Notes under the pieces: generated by a model
The model's input: only the letters and a program-made list of their open reading frames with translations
Told to the model about the DNA's origin: nothing
The model's database searches: none
Origin: an uncultured Lachnospiraceae bacterium
GTDB taxonomy: Bacteria > Bacillota > Clostridia > Lachnospirales > Lachnospiraceae
Assembly (NCBI GenBank): GCA_949840915.1
Contig: CATKXY010000010.1
Span: forward strand, 40,021-104,020
Length of the DNA: 64,000 nt
Direction of reading: 5' to 3'
Part shown: positions 7,277 to 49,477 of the stretch, in pieces
Position numbering within the stretch: position 1 is the stretch's first letter
How the letters are laid out: every line of letters starts with the position of its first letter
Position numbers and translations under genes: made by a program

Positions 7277-8188
7277 ATGATAAAAGAAGTTAAATGGAAT
7301 GACCGGTTTAACATTGGCGTAGACAGCATTGATAAAGCGCACCACAGGCTTTTTACGATCGTAGACAAGCTCATCAATCTCAACGAAAATGAGACCAAGC
7401 AGGAACACGCCTGCCGCGAAGGCATCAAGTATTTTAAGAGCTATACTCTGAAACACTTCGCAGATGAAGAAGCCTACATGCAGTCCATCGGATACAGCGG
7501 ATATGCGGTACATAAAAGTCTGCACGACAATCTGCGGGACAAGACGCTGCCCGCCCTGGAAGCAGAACTGGAAGAGCAGAATTACTCCCCCGAGTCCGTC
7601 CAGCATTTTGTGGGCATATGCGTAGGCTGGCTGAACGGACACATTATGATCGAAGACCGCGCCATCATCGGCAAAACATCTAACAAGTGGGTGATGCAGC
7701 CCTCCGAGAACGAACTGGCAGCGCTGGAAAAAGCCATTGTCCAGGCCCTGCAGAGCCTGTTCCGGATACAGGCAAAGCCGGTCAGCAACCATTACAGCGG
7801 CGAAGATTTTTCCACAGGAAACGCTCTCTGCTACCGCTTAAATTATCGCGGCGAAAAGGGGGACCTGCTGCAGGTCTATCTGACCTATGAGGAGAGGCTG
7901 ATGCTTGAAATATTAGGCGATATGTTCGGCAAACAGATAGCGCGGGCCGATAAAACGGTAGTCTACGCCATGAAGATTCTGTCGCAGCATATCATGGAGC
8001 TCATCACAAAGCACTTTGTCCTGACCGACAATTATCATCTGGAAAAGAACGATCTGCTCACCTTCGAGCAGTTCCTCAGAATATTTGAAAAAGAAAATCC
8101 GCCCTACAGCCTGCTGTTTGGTACCGGCGGAAAAGGATACTTCGCTTTCAGCGTCAAGGGGAAACAGCTTGTGAAGCCCCAGGCGTAA
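7277..8188 (+). CDS. Bacteriohemerythrin-domain protein with additional C-terminal domain (CheX-like?)
   Basis: Hemerythrin ligand pattern DKAHHRLF, HFADEEAYM, HKSLHDNL, HIMIEDRAI; C-terminal half similar to the protein at 47178-48524. Confidence 0.88.
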   Translation: MIKEVKWNDRFNIGVDSIDKAHHRLFTIVDKLINLNENETKQEHACREGIKYFKSYTLKHFADEEAYMQSIGYSGYAVHKSLHDNLRDKTLPALEAELEEQNYSPESVQHFVGICVGWLNGHIMIEDRAIIGKTSNKWVMQPSENELAALEKAIVQALQSLFRIQAKPVSNHYSGEDFSTGNALCYRLNYRGEKGDLLQVYLTYEERLMLEILGDMFGKQIARADKTVVYAMKILSQHIMELITKHFVLTDNYHLEKNDLLTFEQFLRIFEKENPPYSLLFGTGGKGYFAFSVKGKQLVKPQA

Positions 8189-43491: not shown

Positions 43492-45531
43492 ATGAGACCA
43501 GAATGGACAGACTTTGTAGCCGGAAAATGGGATAAGGAAGTGAATGTGCGCGACTTTATCCAGAAGAACTACCATCCCTACGACGGTGATGAGAGTTTCT
43601 TGGCCGGAGCTACACAGAACACAAAAGACTTATGGACACAGGTGCTTGATCTGCAGAAGCAGGAGAGAGAAGCAGGCGGCGTTCTCGACATGGACACCAA
43701 GGTTGTTTCCACCATCACTTCTCATGGCCCTGGTTATCTTGACAAGTCCAAGGAGACGATCGTAGGTTTCCAGACCGACAAGCCTTTCAAGAGATCTCTG
43801 CAGCCTTACGGCGGTATCCGTATGGCAGAGAAAGCCTGCTCCGACAACGGATATGAGGTTGATCCTGAGATTTCCGAGTTCTTCTCCACTCACAGAAAGA
43901 CTCACAATGCAGGTTGTTTTGACGCATACAACCAGGAGATGAGAGCCTGCCGTTCCTCTCATATCATCACCGGTCTTCCTGATGCTTATGGCCGCGGCCG
44001 TATCATCGGTGACTACAGACGTGTAGCTCTGTACGGTATTGACAGACTGATCGAAGACAAGCAGGCACAGAAGGATTCTACCGGACGTGTGATGACTGAC
44101 GATGTGATCCGTCTTCGCGAGGAGCTTTCCGAGCAGATGACAGCTCTGAAAATGATGAAAGAGATGGCTGCCTCCTACGGCTGCGATATCTCCAAGCCCG
44201 CTGCCAATGTAAAAGAGGCTATTCAGTGGACTTACTTTGGTTATCTGTGTGCAGTAAAGGAGCAGAACGGTGCTGCAATGTCCCTGGGACGTACTTCCAC
44301 CTTCCTTGACTGCTACGCTGAGAGAGACCTGAAGAACGGCACCTTCACCGAGGAAGAGATTCAGGAGTTTGTTGATCACTTCATCATGAAGCTGCGTCTC
44401 ATCAAGTTTGCCCGTACCCCTGAGTACAATCAGATTTTTGCAGGCGATCCCGTCTGGGTTACCGAGTCTCTGGGCGGCGTTGGAGTTGACGGCAGACACA
44501 TGGTTACCAGAATGAGTTTCCGTTACCTGAACACCCTGACCAACCTTGGCGCTTCTCCCGAGCCCAACCTGACCGTACTCTGGTCTACCAGACTTCCCGA
44601 GGGCTGGAAGAGATACTGCGCAAAGATGTCCATTCAGACTTCTTCCATCCAGTACGAGAATGATGATCTGATGAGACCTACTCACGGTGATGACTACGGT
44701 ATTGCATGCTGCGTATCTTCCATGGTAATCGGTAAGGAAATGCAGTTCTTCGGCGCTCGTGCAAACGTGGCAAAATGTCTGCTGTACGCTATGAACGGCG
44801 GTGTGGATGAAGTTACCAAAAAACAGGTAGGCCCCAAGTATCGTCCCGTTGTCGGCGATGTTCTGGACTATGATGATGTAATGGGCAAGTTTATCGACAT
44901 GCTTGAGTGGCAGGCAGATGTCTATGTAAATACTCTGAACATCATTCACTATATGCATGATAAGTACTGCTATGAGAGAGCAGAGATGGCTCTTCATGAC
45001 AGAGACGTTAAGCGTTACTTTGCAACAGGTGTGGCTGGTCTGTCCATCGTGGCTGACTCCCTGTCCGCTATCAAGTATGCAAAGGTTGAGCCCATCCGTG
45101 ACGAGGACGGCATCATCGTTGACTTCAAGACCACCGGTGATTTCCCCAAGTACGGTAATGACGACGACCGCGTAGACAGCATTGCACAGGAAGTTGTTCA
45201 CAAGTTCATGACCGCTATCAGAAGACATCACACCTATAGAAACGGTGTTCCCACCACGTCCATCCTGACCATTACCTCCAACGTAACCTATGGTAAGGCT
45301 ACCGGTAATACTCCCGACGGACGTAAGAAAGGCCAGCCCTTCGCTCCCGGCGCTAACCCTATGCACGGCCGCGATACTCACGGTGCTGTAGCTTCTCTGT
45401 CTTCTGTATCAAAGCTTCCTTTCAATGATGCACAGGACGGTATCTCCAACACCTTCACCATCATCCCCGGCGCATTGGGCAAAGAGGACCAGGTATTTGC
45501 AGGCGATATTGAGCTTGATCTGAACAAATAA
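43492..45531 (+). CDS. pflB: Pyruvate formate-lyase catalytic subunit lacking glycyl-radical domain
   Basis: PFL motif [40 protein letters not shown]; ends [37 protein letters not shown] before the radical domain. Confidence 0.95.
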
Positions 45532-45787: not shown

Positions 45788-46030
45788 ATGGCTACAAATT
45801 CTGCACAGGTTGATAACCTTGTAAACTTACTGGATGGCTATGCTACAAAGGGCGGTCATCATCTGAACGTAAATGTACTGAACAGAGACACCCTGCTGGA
45901 TGCTCAGAAGCATCCCGAGAACTATCCTCAGCTGACCATTCGCGTGTCCGGATATGCAGTAAACTTTATTAAGCTGACTCCCGAGCAGCAGGCTGATGTT
46001 ATTTCCCGTACTTTCCATGAGGCCATCTAA
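45788..46030 (+). CDS. Stand-alone PFL glycyl-radical domain (GrcA/YfiD-like)
   Basis: [55 protein letters not shown] matches the PFL C-terminus; SD AAAGGAGG. Confidence 0.96.
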
Positions 46031-46063
46031 TCGAATCTTCAACAAAATACCCGGGTAACCGGG

Positions 46064-46109
46064 GTAACAAAAGAGAGCTTCGGATTCGTCCGAAGCTCTC
46101 TTTTGTTAC
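46064..46109. terminator. Bidirectional intrinsic terminator
   Basis: Perfect 21-bp inverted repeat, TTCG loop: GTAACAAAAGAGAGCTTCGGA-ttcg-TCCGAAGCTCTCTTTTGTTAC. Confidence 0.9.
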
Positions 46110-46132
46110 ACTTTTTTATTGATCAGAACCCA

Positions 46133-47140
46133 TTATATGGTCTTCTTCCTTCGTATTAGAAGACATCCCGCAAGACACAAACCTGAGATCAGCAACATTG
46201 TCTCAGTCAAACGCATCACCAGACTGCTCTCTCCTGTTTTCGGAACATCATCATATAAGTCTGACTGCGCTGTACTCTGAGAGGCCGCCGCACTCTGAGA
46301 AGTCGCTGCAGGCGCGTTTCCGGATGTGCTGTAATTACCGGAATAAGTCTCCAGCCCCTTCTTTTCATCAAATCGAAATGTTCCGTTGGCAAATTTCCAG
46401 TATTCCGAATAGAGACCGCCTACATCCGAAACCGAAGCATAGTCCACTGTCCCGCCCACAGTCACATTGGGAAGCCATTTCTCATCACTTCTGGCATCAT
46501 CCAGTCTCCCTTTACTGTTATACAGTCTCAAATTGGAGACATTGTTGTGGAAGGTGCAATCTGCCGCATCGTACACATATGCGTTGGTGACGTTTCCGCC
46601 GATTGCCGCATAGCTGTCTCCCAGCACATGACACTCATCTACGCCTCCGGTGGAAAGGAATGCGCTGGAACGGCTTATGGTCAGATTGCTCAGATGCGCT
46701 TTGATCTCGATGACCGTCTGATCCGTGGCCTGTTTTACCCGTTTCACAGAGTATCCGTCCTCCTGCTCTTCCAATCCTTCCGTCAGAGGGAGATTGGGCA
46801 GCACCACTACTATATCTCCGTCCTTGATGGTATAATCATCTCCCTCGTTGAGATAATAAGGCTCTCTGCCCTCCTTATTGTCATCCCAGAAGCCGACCTG
46901 CCTGCGCCACTGATAAGTATGGCTTGAATCATGTCCTTCAAAAGTGGGATTTCCATGTTTGTCCTTGGTGTCTTCATCCCAGAGACATGTTGTGCAGACA
47001 TATCTGAGATAAAATGTCGTAGGCTCCTCCGCCAAAACCCGCAGCGAGCTTCCTCCGGGAAAAGCGGCGGCAGCCAATACGGAAACCGTAAGTAAAGCAG
47101 CTTTCCCAAAACTTTTCATCTTTCGCATTCTTCGTCTCAT
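46133..47140 (-). CDS. Secreted surface protein with VPKTGE sorting signal (paralog of 35742-36641)
   Basis: Signal peptide; GGVDECHVLGDSYAAIGGNVTNAYVYDAADCTFHNNVSNLRL; C-terminal DDVPKTGESSLVMRL..LIRRKKTI. Confidence 0.87.
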   Translation of the reverse strand: MRRRMRKMKSFGKAALLTVSVLAAAAFPGGSSLRVLAEEPTTFYLRYVCTTCLWDEDTKDKHGNPTFEGHDSSHTYQWRRQVGFWDDNKEGREPYYLNEGDDYTIKDGDIVVVLPNLPLTEGLEEQEDGYSVKRVKQATDQTVIEIKAHLSNLTISRSSAFLSTGGVDECHVLGDSYAAIGGNVTNAYVYDAADCTFHNNVSNLRLYNSKGRLDDARSDEKWLPNVTVGGTVDYASVSDVGGLYSEYWKFANGTFRFDEKKGLETYSGNYSTSGNAPAATSQSAAASQSTAQSDLYDDVPKTGESSLVMRLTETMLLISGLCLAGCLLIRRKKTI

Positions 47141-47177
47141 CACCTGTTCTCCCCCCGCCTGATTCCTCATCACATTG

Positions 47178-48524
47178 TCACTCTTTATTTGCCAGAAAAT
47201 CATTGACCATCTTCTTGATCTCCTCGTCCGGCATCATTTTTAACAGATATCCCTCCGGCTTAAGCTCTCTGACTTTCTTTACGCTCTCCCTGTCGGCTCT
47301 TCCCGTCAAAAAAAATACAGGAATGTTCGCCGTCGCCTTCTCGGAACGGATCATCTCCAAAGTCTGCCTTCCGTCACAGACAGGCATCTCATAATCCAGC
47401 AGAACCAGATCCGGTCTGTTAATTGTGATACTCTGAATGGCGGATATACTGGAGCCCACTTCCGTCACCTCATAATCGCTCTCAAAAAGACTGACTATCT
47501 TCTTTCTCATAAACTCCGAATCATCCACCACAAGGATTTTTTTCTTCTGCTTTTTCCATTCCGCATTCTCATTGTCCAGATATTGTTTAACCGCATCCAT
47601 TGCATTTTCGTGATCTATCCCGGACTCGATCTTACCGCGGATAGAATTTGAAGATGCCGCGCAAAATGCAAAATATCCCTCGCCCGTGTCGAACAGCAGA
47701 CTGCAGGATGGCGGAACACGGTCAAAGGAATCCAGCAGCTGCTCATGGGTCAGCAGACTCTCTTTCTCCAATTCAAACAGATCCAGAGACGGAAAGCTTT
47801 CCCGGATACGTTCCATAAACTGTCTGGAAATATATCTGCCGATATTGATGACCATATCGTCAACCTTTTTATATTCCGCATTGAAGATGGTACCTACGAT
47901 TTTAAGCAGAAGCTCCTCCTCAAATACAAGTGCGATCTCCCACTTTCCTTTATTTTCCCCGCGGTAGACAAAACGGCTGCAGATCACCTTTCCAAAGTTT
48001 TCTCCCGCATACTGCTTGCTGATCTTTTTCGCCTGCAGCTGAAACATCTCCTGAATAAGCTGGATAATGGTCTGCCCCATGACTTCCTGCTCTTTTTCAT
48101 GAGGAAGATCCACCCATTTGCTTCTCTTTTTCCCTATAATCGCCAGATCCTCTGTCAGCGTGTGCGCAACCACCCATCCGATACAGACACCAAGAAAATG
48201 CCTGATGGACTCGACAGAATATTCAGACTCCTCCATCTCTTTTTCCAGTGCCGGCAGCGTATTGTCACGGAAATCGGTATGGAGCCGTTTATGTACCTCG
48301 TATTCACTGTAGTTGATGGAACGCATATATTGTTCCTCGTGCTCGAAATGCTCTGTGGAATGGTTTTTAAGATATTTTACCCCTTCCCTGCATACCCACT
48401 CGCTTTTGTCCTCATTTTCACTGATGCGCAAAAGCTTATCCATCGTTGAGAAGAGTAGTTTGTGCTCCTTGTCAATAAAATCAACACCAAGATTATATCT
48501 GTCGTTCCATTTTATCTGTTTCAT
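47178..48524 (-). CDS. Hemerythrin - middle domain - response-regulator receiver fusion
   Basis: DKEHKLLF, HFEHEEQYM, HKRLHTDF, HTLTEDLAI; C-terminal KKILVVDDSEFMRKKIV..LVLLDYEMPVCDG..FLTGR. Confidence 0.93.
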   Translation of the reverse strand: MKQIKWNDRYNLGVDFIDKEHKLLFSTMDKLLRISENEDKSEWVCREGVKYLKNHSTEHFEHEEQYMRSINYSEYEVHKRLHTDFRDNTLPALEKEMEESEYSVESIRHFLGVCIGWVVAHTLTEDLAIIGKKRSKWVDLPHEKEQEVMGQTIIQLIQEMFQLQAKKISKQYAGENFGKVICSRFVYRGENKGKWEIALVFEEELLLKIVGTIFNAEYKKVDDMVINIGRYISRQFMERIRESFPSLDLFELEKESLLTHEQLLDSFDRVPPSCSLLFDTGEGYFAFCAASSNSIRGKIESGIDHENAMDAVKQYLDNENAEWKKQKKKILVVDDSEFMRKKIVSLFESDYEVTEVGSSISAIQSITINRPDLVLLDYEMPVCDGRQTLEMIRSEKATANIPVFFLTGRADRESVKKVRELKPEGYLLKMMPDEEIKKMVNDFLANKE

Positions 48525-48712
48525 AGGCACCTCACTGTGTTATAATATAGAATTAATTACCATTTCTATAGACCTTCCAATGGTATGCATTATATCATAT
48601 TTTCAGTATTTTGTCTATATAACAGCCCATGCTCACTTTCCAATTATGTCTTTATATTTACAGCTAAATGAGGTATAATAGATAACAAAATGATACGGAA
48701 AGGAATATTGCT

Positions 48713-49477
48713 ATGCAAGGTAAAATTCATTCTCTGGAAAGCTTTGGGACCGTTGACGGCCCCGGCACACGTTTCGTAGTATTTGTACAGGGCTGTCCCA
48801 TGCGCTGCGCTTACTGTCATAATCCCGACACATGGGAGATGAACGGCGGCACCCTCATGGAACCCTCCTACATTATAGAGCAGTATGAGCGCAACAAAGC
48901 ATTTTACGCCAACGGCGGCGGCCTGACTGTGACAGGAGGCGAACCGTTGATGCAGGTGGATTTTTTGATCGACCTCTTTACGCTGGCCAAGCAGCAAAAC
49001 ATTCACACCTGTATCGACAGTTCCGGCATTGCCTACAATCCGAACAATACAGAATGGCTGAAAAAGCTCGATCATCTCATGACCCTCACAGACCTGGTGA
49101 TGCTGGACATTAAGCATATCGACCCGGAAAAACACAAGGATCTAGTCAAACAGCCCAACACCAATATTTTGAAATTTGCCGCTTATCTGAACGATAAAAA
49201 GGTTGATATGTGGATTCGCCATGTGATTGTCCCCGGCTACACGGACGACGACAAATATCTGTTTGACCTGGGATACTTTATCGGCCAGTTTACCAATCTG
49301 AAAGCGCTGGATGCACTGCCTTATCACACCATGGGCGAAGCTAAATACGAAAAGCTCGGCATGGAATACCGCCTCAAAGGAGTTCCCGCTATGGATAAGG
49401 ACAAACTGATCGAAAAGAAAGAAGTAATACTGAACGGCATCCGCAAACGCAGAGCGGAAATGCAGTCTGCGCAATAG
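48713..49477 (+). CDS. pflA: Pyruvate formate-lyase-activating enzyme (radical SAM)
   Basis: GCPMRCAYCHNPDTW; GGGLTVTGGEPLMQ. Confidence 0.96.
   Translation: MQGKIHSLESFGTVDGPGTRFVVFVQGCPMRCAYCHNPDTWEMNGGTLMEPSYIIEQYERNKAFYANGGGLTVTGGEPLMQVDFLIDLFTLAKQQNIHTCIDSSGIAYNPNNTEWLKKLDHLMTLTDLVMLDIKHIDPEKHKDLVKQPNTNILKFAAYLNDKKVDMWIRHVIVPGYTDDDKYLFDLGYFIGQFTNLKALDALPYHTMGEAKYEKLGMEYRLKGVPAMDKDKLIEKKEVILNGIRKRRAEMQSAQ

Follow-up and report, generated by a model that had tools for sequence, protein, structure and literature searches.

The window analysed here is a 64,000-nt stretch of a contig from an anaerobic gut-type bacterium of the Lachnospiraceae type (genome G000). On its minus strand, at 47178–48524, it encodes a 448-aa protein in which a hemerythrin domain, a middle domain with a CheX fold and a REC receiver domain follow one another from the N- to the C-terminus. 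As the initial annotation had recognised, this hemerythrin/REC fusion lies between a split PFL and its activase, flanked by grcA3 and pflA. The features discussed below are as follows.

43492–45531, plus strand: truncated PFL (formate C-acetyltransferase), 679 aa (TIGR01255, 1103 bits)
45788–46030, plus strand: GrcA3, the separate glycyl-radical C-terminal part, 80 aa (NF038360, 161.8 bits, cut-off 158)
46064–46109, plus strand: strong terminator-like hairpin after grcA3 (20-pair stem and T run)
46133–47203, minus strand: secreted sortase-type wall protein, longest ORF, ending in VPKTG (LPXTG anchor match below cut-off)
47181–47540, minus strand: REC receiver domain, residues 329–448, with D334/D335, D377, T407 and K429 (Pfam Response_reg, conservation, tree)
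47625–48098, minus strand: CheX-fold middle domain, residues 143–300 (AlphaFold and Foldseek; CheC-like PDB profile match)
47823–47834, minus strand: site matching the catalytic ExxN of CheX, with both catalytic residues exchanged, Y231-I-S-R234 (HMMER and hhalign, same register)
48135–48524, minus strand: hemerythrin (HHE) domain, residues 1–130 (Pfam and NCBIfam)
48589–48617, minus strand: sigma-70 promoter predicted for the hemerythrin gene, TAGACA-17-TATAAT (11/12, consensus match only)
48651–48679, plus strand: predicted separate pflA promoter, TTTATA-17-TATAAT (10/12, consensus match only)
48713–49477, plus strand: PflA activase (TIGR02493, 293 bits, cut-off 231.75)

Gene content of the grcA3-pflA gap

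The ORF at 47178–48524 is a real gene. It runs from an ATG at 48524, preceded by a GAGG ribosome-site-like stretch and by a GTG 6 nt upstream, to 47178, and it is under purifying selection (dN/dS of 0.065 against the closest relative). No plasmid record covered 80% of the length of its product. The PFL split is genuine, the C-terminal half of the radical domain being absent from the 679-aa protein and provided by GrcA3; this two-part form is already named by NCBIfam. A second GrcA3-like gene occurs in the same genome away from the PFL locus (G000:C5:129629-129859, 160.3 bits). The gap also holds a second minus-strand gene that had previously been missed, encoding the sortase-type protein, directly downstream of the hemerythrin gene and co-directional with it. 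This protein matches no Pfam family, and its gene stands beside the hemerythrin gene in the sister species only.

The hemerythrin gene is on the strand opposite to the pfl operon and divergent from pflA, and the intergenic stretch of about 185 bp is common to the window and the sister species; the stretch upstream of pflA can also be aligned in G125 (L107). Predicted promoters on both strands, together with the 20-pair terminator, agree with independent transcription of the hemerythrin gene. The initial annotation had suggested that the protein may serve PFL and PflA as an O2 sensor or scavenger, in which case its position would reflect that role. PFL-type glycyl radical enzymes are oxygen-sensitive, the hemerythrin domain is intact, and the divergent arrangement with pflA recurs in two species, all of which speaks for such a role. 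The wider distribution of the gene, however, argues against it. Among the 138 genomes of a genus survey, pflA was present in 122, as compared with 48 for any strong relative of the hemerythrin protein. A full-length relative and pflA occurred together in 36 genomes, and on one contig in only two of these, the window's own (G000) and that of the sister species (G072); contig numbers were read from two tables for this count, and since the assemblies are fragmented, different contigs alone are no proof of separation. Flanks reaching up to about 8 kb were compared for 31 loci, and pfl was found at one of them, again that of the sister species (L036, the same record as G072). There is no conserved partner gene, as no neighbour is common to more than four of the 31 loci. 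Orthologs adjoin gyrA-like genes, an MCP gene (L038) or unrelated genes, and the hemerythrin/CheX-like/REC architecture recurs across three families of the order, its genes having no neighbour in common.

At the same time, the pfl-grcA3-pflA locus exists without the insert. In the close relatives L105, L106 and L108 the grcA3-pflA gap measures about 160–255 bp, and in most genus members compared it is 84–354 bp. Different unrelated genes occupy it in about six species (L056, L057, L058, L059, L060 and the window itself, 46031–48712). By eye, these are a glycosyltransferase-like membrane protein in L057, membrane proteins in L058, a LacI-type/GGDEF pair in L059 and an 8.5 kb stretch in L056. 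From these comparisons we conclude that this gap within a core operon is prone to insertion, and that the hemerythrin gene is one of the genes it has taken in. The position of the gene beside pflA is probably incidental, a chance event, and a recent one, confined to two closely related species. With co-localisation limited to the sister species, and with the gene on the opposite strand under its own predicted promoter, a service to PFL and PflA is very improbable; the neighbourhood with pflA is not conserved. Two observations had been named at the outset as speaking against that role: orthologs never near pfl genes, and a middle domain unrelated to signalling. The first is what we found, save for the sister species; the second is not, because the middle domain has a signalling fold.

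The hemerythrin and middle domains

The hemerythrin domain is recognised by both Pfam (PF01814, E=2.8e-9, 37.9 bits against a cut-off of 25.3) and NCBIfam (TIGR02481, 77.7 bits against a cut-off of 51.75). All seven putative di-iron ligands are in place (H21, H59, E63, H78, H82, H121 and D126), so that the full motif set reported initially was confirmed, and the set H, HxxxE, HxxxH, HxxxxD is invariant in 18 homologs and likewise across a wider set of relatives, wherever these are complete. The same seven-ligand di-iron sensor domain is found at the terminus of signalling proteins such as DcrH of Desulfovibrio (PDB 2avk), Bhr-GGDEF and Bhr-HD-GYP. The output in those sensors is an MCP, a diguanylate cyclase or an HD-GYP domain, whereas in the window protein that place is taken by a CheX fold with a REC domain. 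In known cases, diguanylate cyclase and HD-GYP outputs are gated by a hemerythrin domain according to its oxidation state (PMC8846402). The host genome also encodes two REC-less paralogs of 303 and 293 aa combining hemerythrin and CheX-like parts (window 7277–8188, plus strand, and G000:C24:8632-9510, L055), and a tandem pair of hemerythrin domains in a single 280-aa frame (G000:C4:65243-66022, L001 and L002).

The full-length AlphaFold model (mean pLDDT 57.9) was too poor for domain arrangement, and the middle domain was therefore modelled separately, reaching a pLDDT of 88.9. The top 13 PDB matches returned by Foldseek are all CheX or CheC-like (E from 9.6e-9, TM 0.61–0.73) and matches 14–34 are CheC, FliY and FliM of the same fold superfamily; all 34 matches with E up to 0.0012 thus belong to the CheX/CheC superfamily, after which E jumps to 0.03. 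A profile of the middle domain of the 18 homologs gave a CheC-like protein as its best PDB match (E=0.034), with a second CheC-like chain also among the matches. None of the 18 homologs has a convincing Pfam match in this region, PF13690 included, and hhalign against a true CheX profile was not significant (probability 1.1), so that a direct sequence link to Pfam CheX was rejected and the kinship rests on the fold. By its predicted structure, then, the middle domain is a member of the CheX/CheC fold superfamily, and the CheX-like identity first suggested by eye holds at the level of the fold.

Compared with the CheX/CheC phosphatases (PDB 6vpw, 3h2d and 3hzh; PF13690), the domain is alike in fold and element order (Foldseek E of 9.6e-9, TM about 0.7), but has no Pfam match, has lost ExxN and is fused to a sensor on one side and to a REC of its own on the other. 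Every REC-bearing relative examined has [Y/F/I]xx[R/K/Q] at the ExxN slot, never E and N; the REC-less forms have I or E at the first of these positions and Q or L at the second. CheX catalysis requires an acidic residue and an amide, both provided by ExxN (PMC3510030). On the evidence of these alignments, the CheX fold here is a catalytically degenerate, family-wide pseudo-phosphatase form. It could nonetheless be argued that it still dephosphorylates the REC domain in cis through the residue at the former Asn position, under the control of hemerythrin. The fusion of a CheX fold to an intact REC fits such an activity, as does the Q found at that position in L113 and L115–L118, given that RapH works with a single amide side chain and no acidic residue (PMC3035606). 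The window protein and the other aligned genus members, however, have R or K there, which means that both residues required by CheX are missing, and we regard cis dephosphorylation as unlikely.

A second architecture with the same domain order occurs in the genus: L093–L096 combine a DUF4388-like N-terminus, a CheX domain with ExxN and a REC domain, and the DUF4388-like/CheX form is also seen without REC (L097–L101). Unlike the window protein, these proteins (L093, L094) have a CheX domain with intact E and N and a Pfam match. Their REC domains form a separate branch (27–29% identity), which rules them out as the ancestor and makes an independent origin of the two architectures probable. In L117 and L118, which are 562–568-aa frames from another family, a repeat-like linker of about 110 aa separates the CheX fold from REC.

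The receiver and its relatives

The C-terminal REC domain (PF00072, E=2.7e-20) carries the expected DD..D and K-type motifs at D334/D335, D377 and K429, in line with its first description, and the five phosphorylation residues do not vary among the complete proteins of the wider set of relatives. In a REC tree that contained no CheY, the hemerythrin RECs form one group (support 94/89) inside regulators of about 249–283 aa that belong to the same order, and are set apart from the DUF4388-like/CheX/REC proteins. These regulators, found beside REC-HPt hybrid kinases (L019, L020), are the closest REC relatives, the nearest at ~46–53% identity; they differ in having a short regulator-like domain as N-terminal half in place of hemerythrin-CheX. 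Many directly adjoin genes ending in REC-HPt. Eight such adjoining genes have REC followed by HPt, and so does the PocR kinase of L036; two of these HPt matches fall short of the curated cut-off. The pattern suggests that the hemerythrin-REC protein, too, has an HPt donor, the linkage being one of its REC relatives' genes and not of the hemerythrin gene itself. No gene for a partner kinase adjoins it at the locus. The region directly upstream of pfl, where the window carries other genes, encodes in the sister species a hybrid kinase with a PocR domain and a REC-HPt end, together with its response regulator (L036, 13295–16906, minus strand).

Another conceivable output is aerotaxis, in which the protein would act as a CheY-like competitor, a phosphate sink or a binder of the flagellar switch, with a strength set by O2. 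In favour of it, the organism is chemotactic, its genome encoding 21 MCP signalling domains as well as a CheC/CheX-family protein; the CheX fold is a chemotaxis fold, and there is the one ortholog beside an MCP gene. The nearest kin of the REC domain, however, are regulators tied to HPt hybrid kinases (in the tree without CheY), and no chemotaxis gene was found as a conserved neighbour at the 31 loci. We therefore consider aerotaxis rather unlikely.

A proposed role and its meaning

Taking together the kinship of the REC domain to HPt-linked regulators and the known gating by hemerythrin oxidation state, we read the 448-aa protein as an orphan terminal receiver in a phosphorelay, tuned by oxygen or redox, with a dead CheX fold coupling the sensor to the receiver and an incidental position beside pflA. 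This is our best explanation, held at about even confidence. A hybrid kinase encoded elsewhere would phosphorylate D377 via an HPt; the di-iron site would change state with O2, redox or NO; and that state may alter, through the CheX fold as a coupling or docking module, the duration or the productivity of REC phosphorylation. The output would be protein-protein binding, as the protein has no DNA-binding or enzymatic output domain. In a more specific version, which we think quite unlikely, the CheX fold could be a redox-controlled clamp on its own REC, in which the residue that replaces Asn (Arg, Lys or Gln), together with Tyr in place of Glu, would contact the phospho-aspartate site and stabilise the phosphorylated state rather than hydrolyse it, and the di-iron hemerythrin would switch the clamp. 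If that were true, a single protein would be an AND gate of oxygen and phosphorelay.

Fusions of hemerythrin to signalling domains are already known as a class; 56 architectures have been counted, with regions unmatched by Pfam in most long forms (PMC4919030). A hemerythrin/pseudo-CheX/REC family was not found in the literature searched, nor was any paper combining hemerythrin, response regulator and CheX, in a search that covered few subscription papers. The locus is also a warning against inferring function from position, given that several species have unrelated genes lodged in the grcA3-pflA gap. What the family offers is a CheX fold of pseudo-phosphatase form, joined family-wide to an oxygen-sensor domain and a receiver within one polypeptide and conserved over three families of anaerobes, in which residues Y231, R234 and D377 allow a clear residue-level test.
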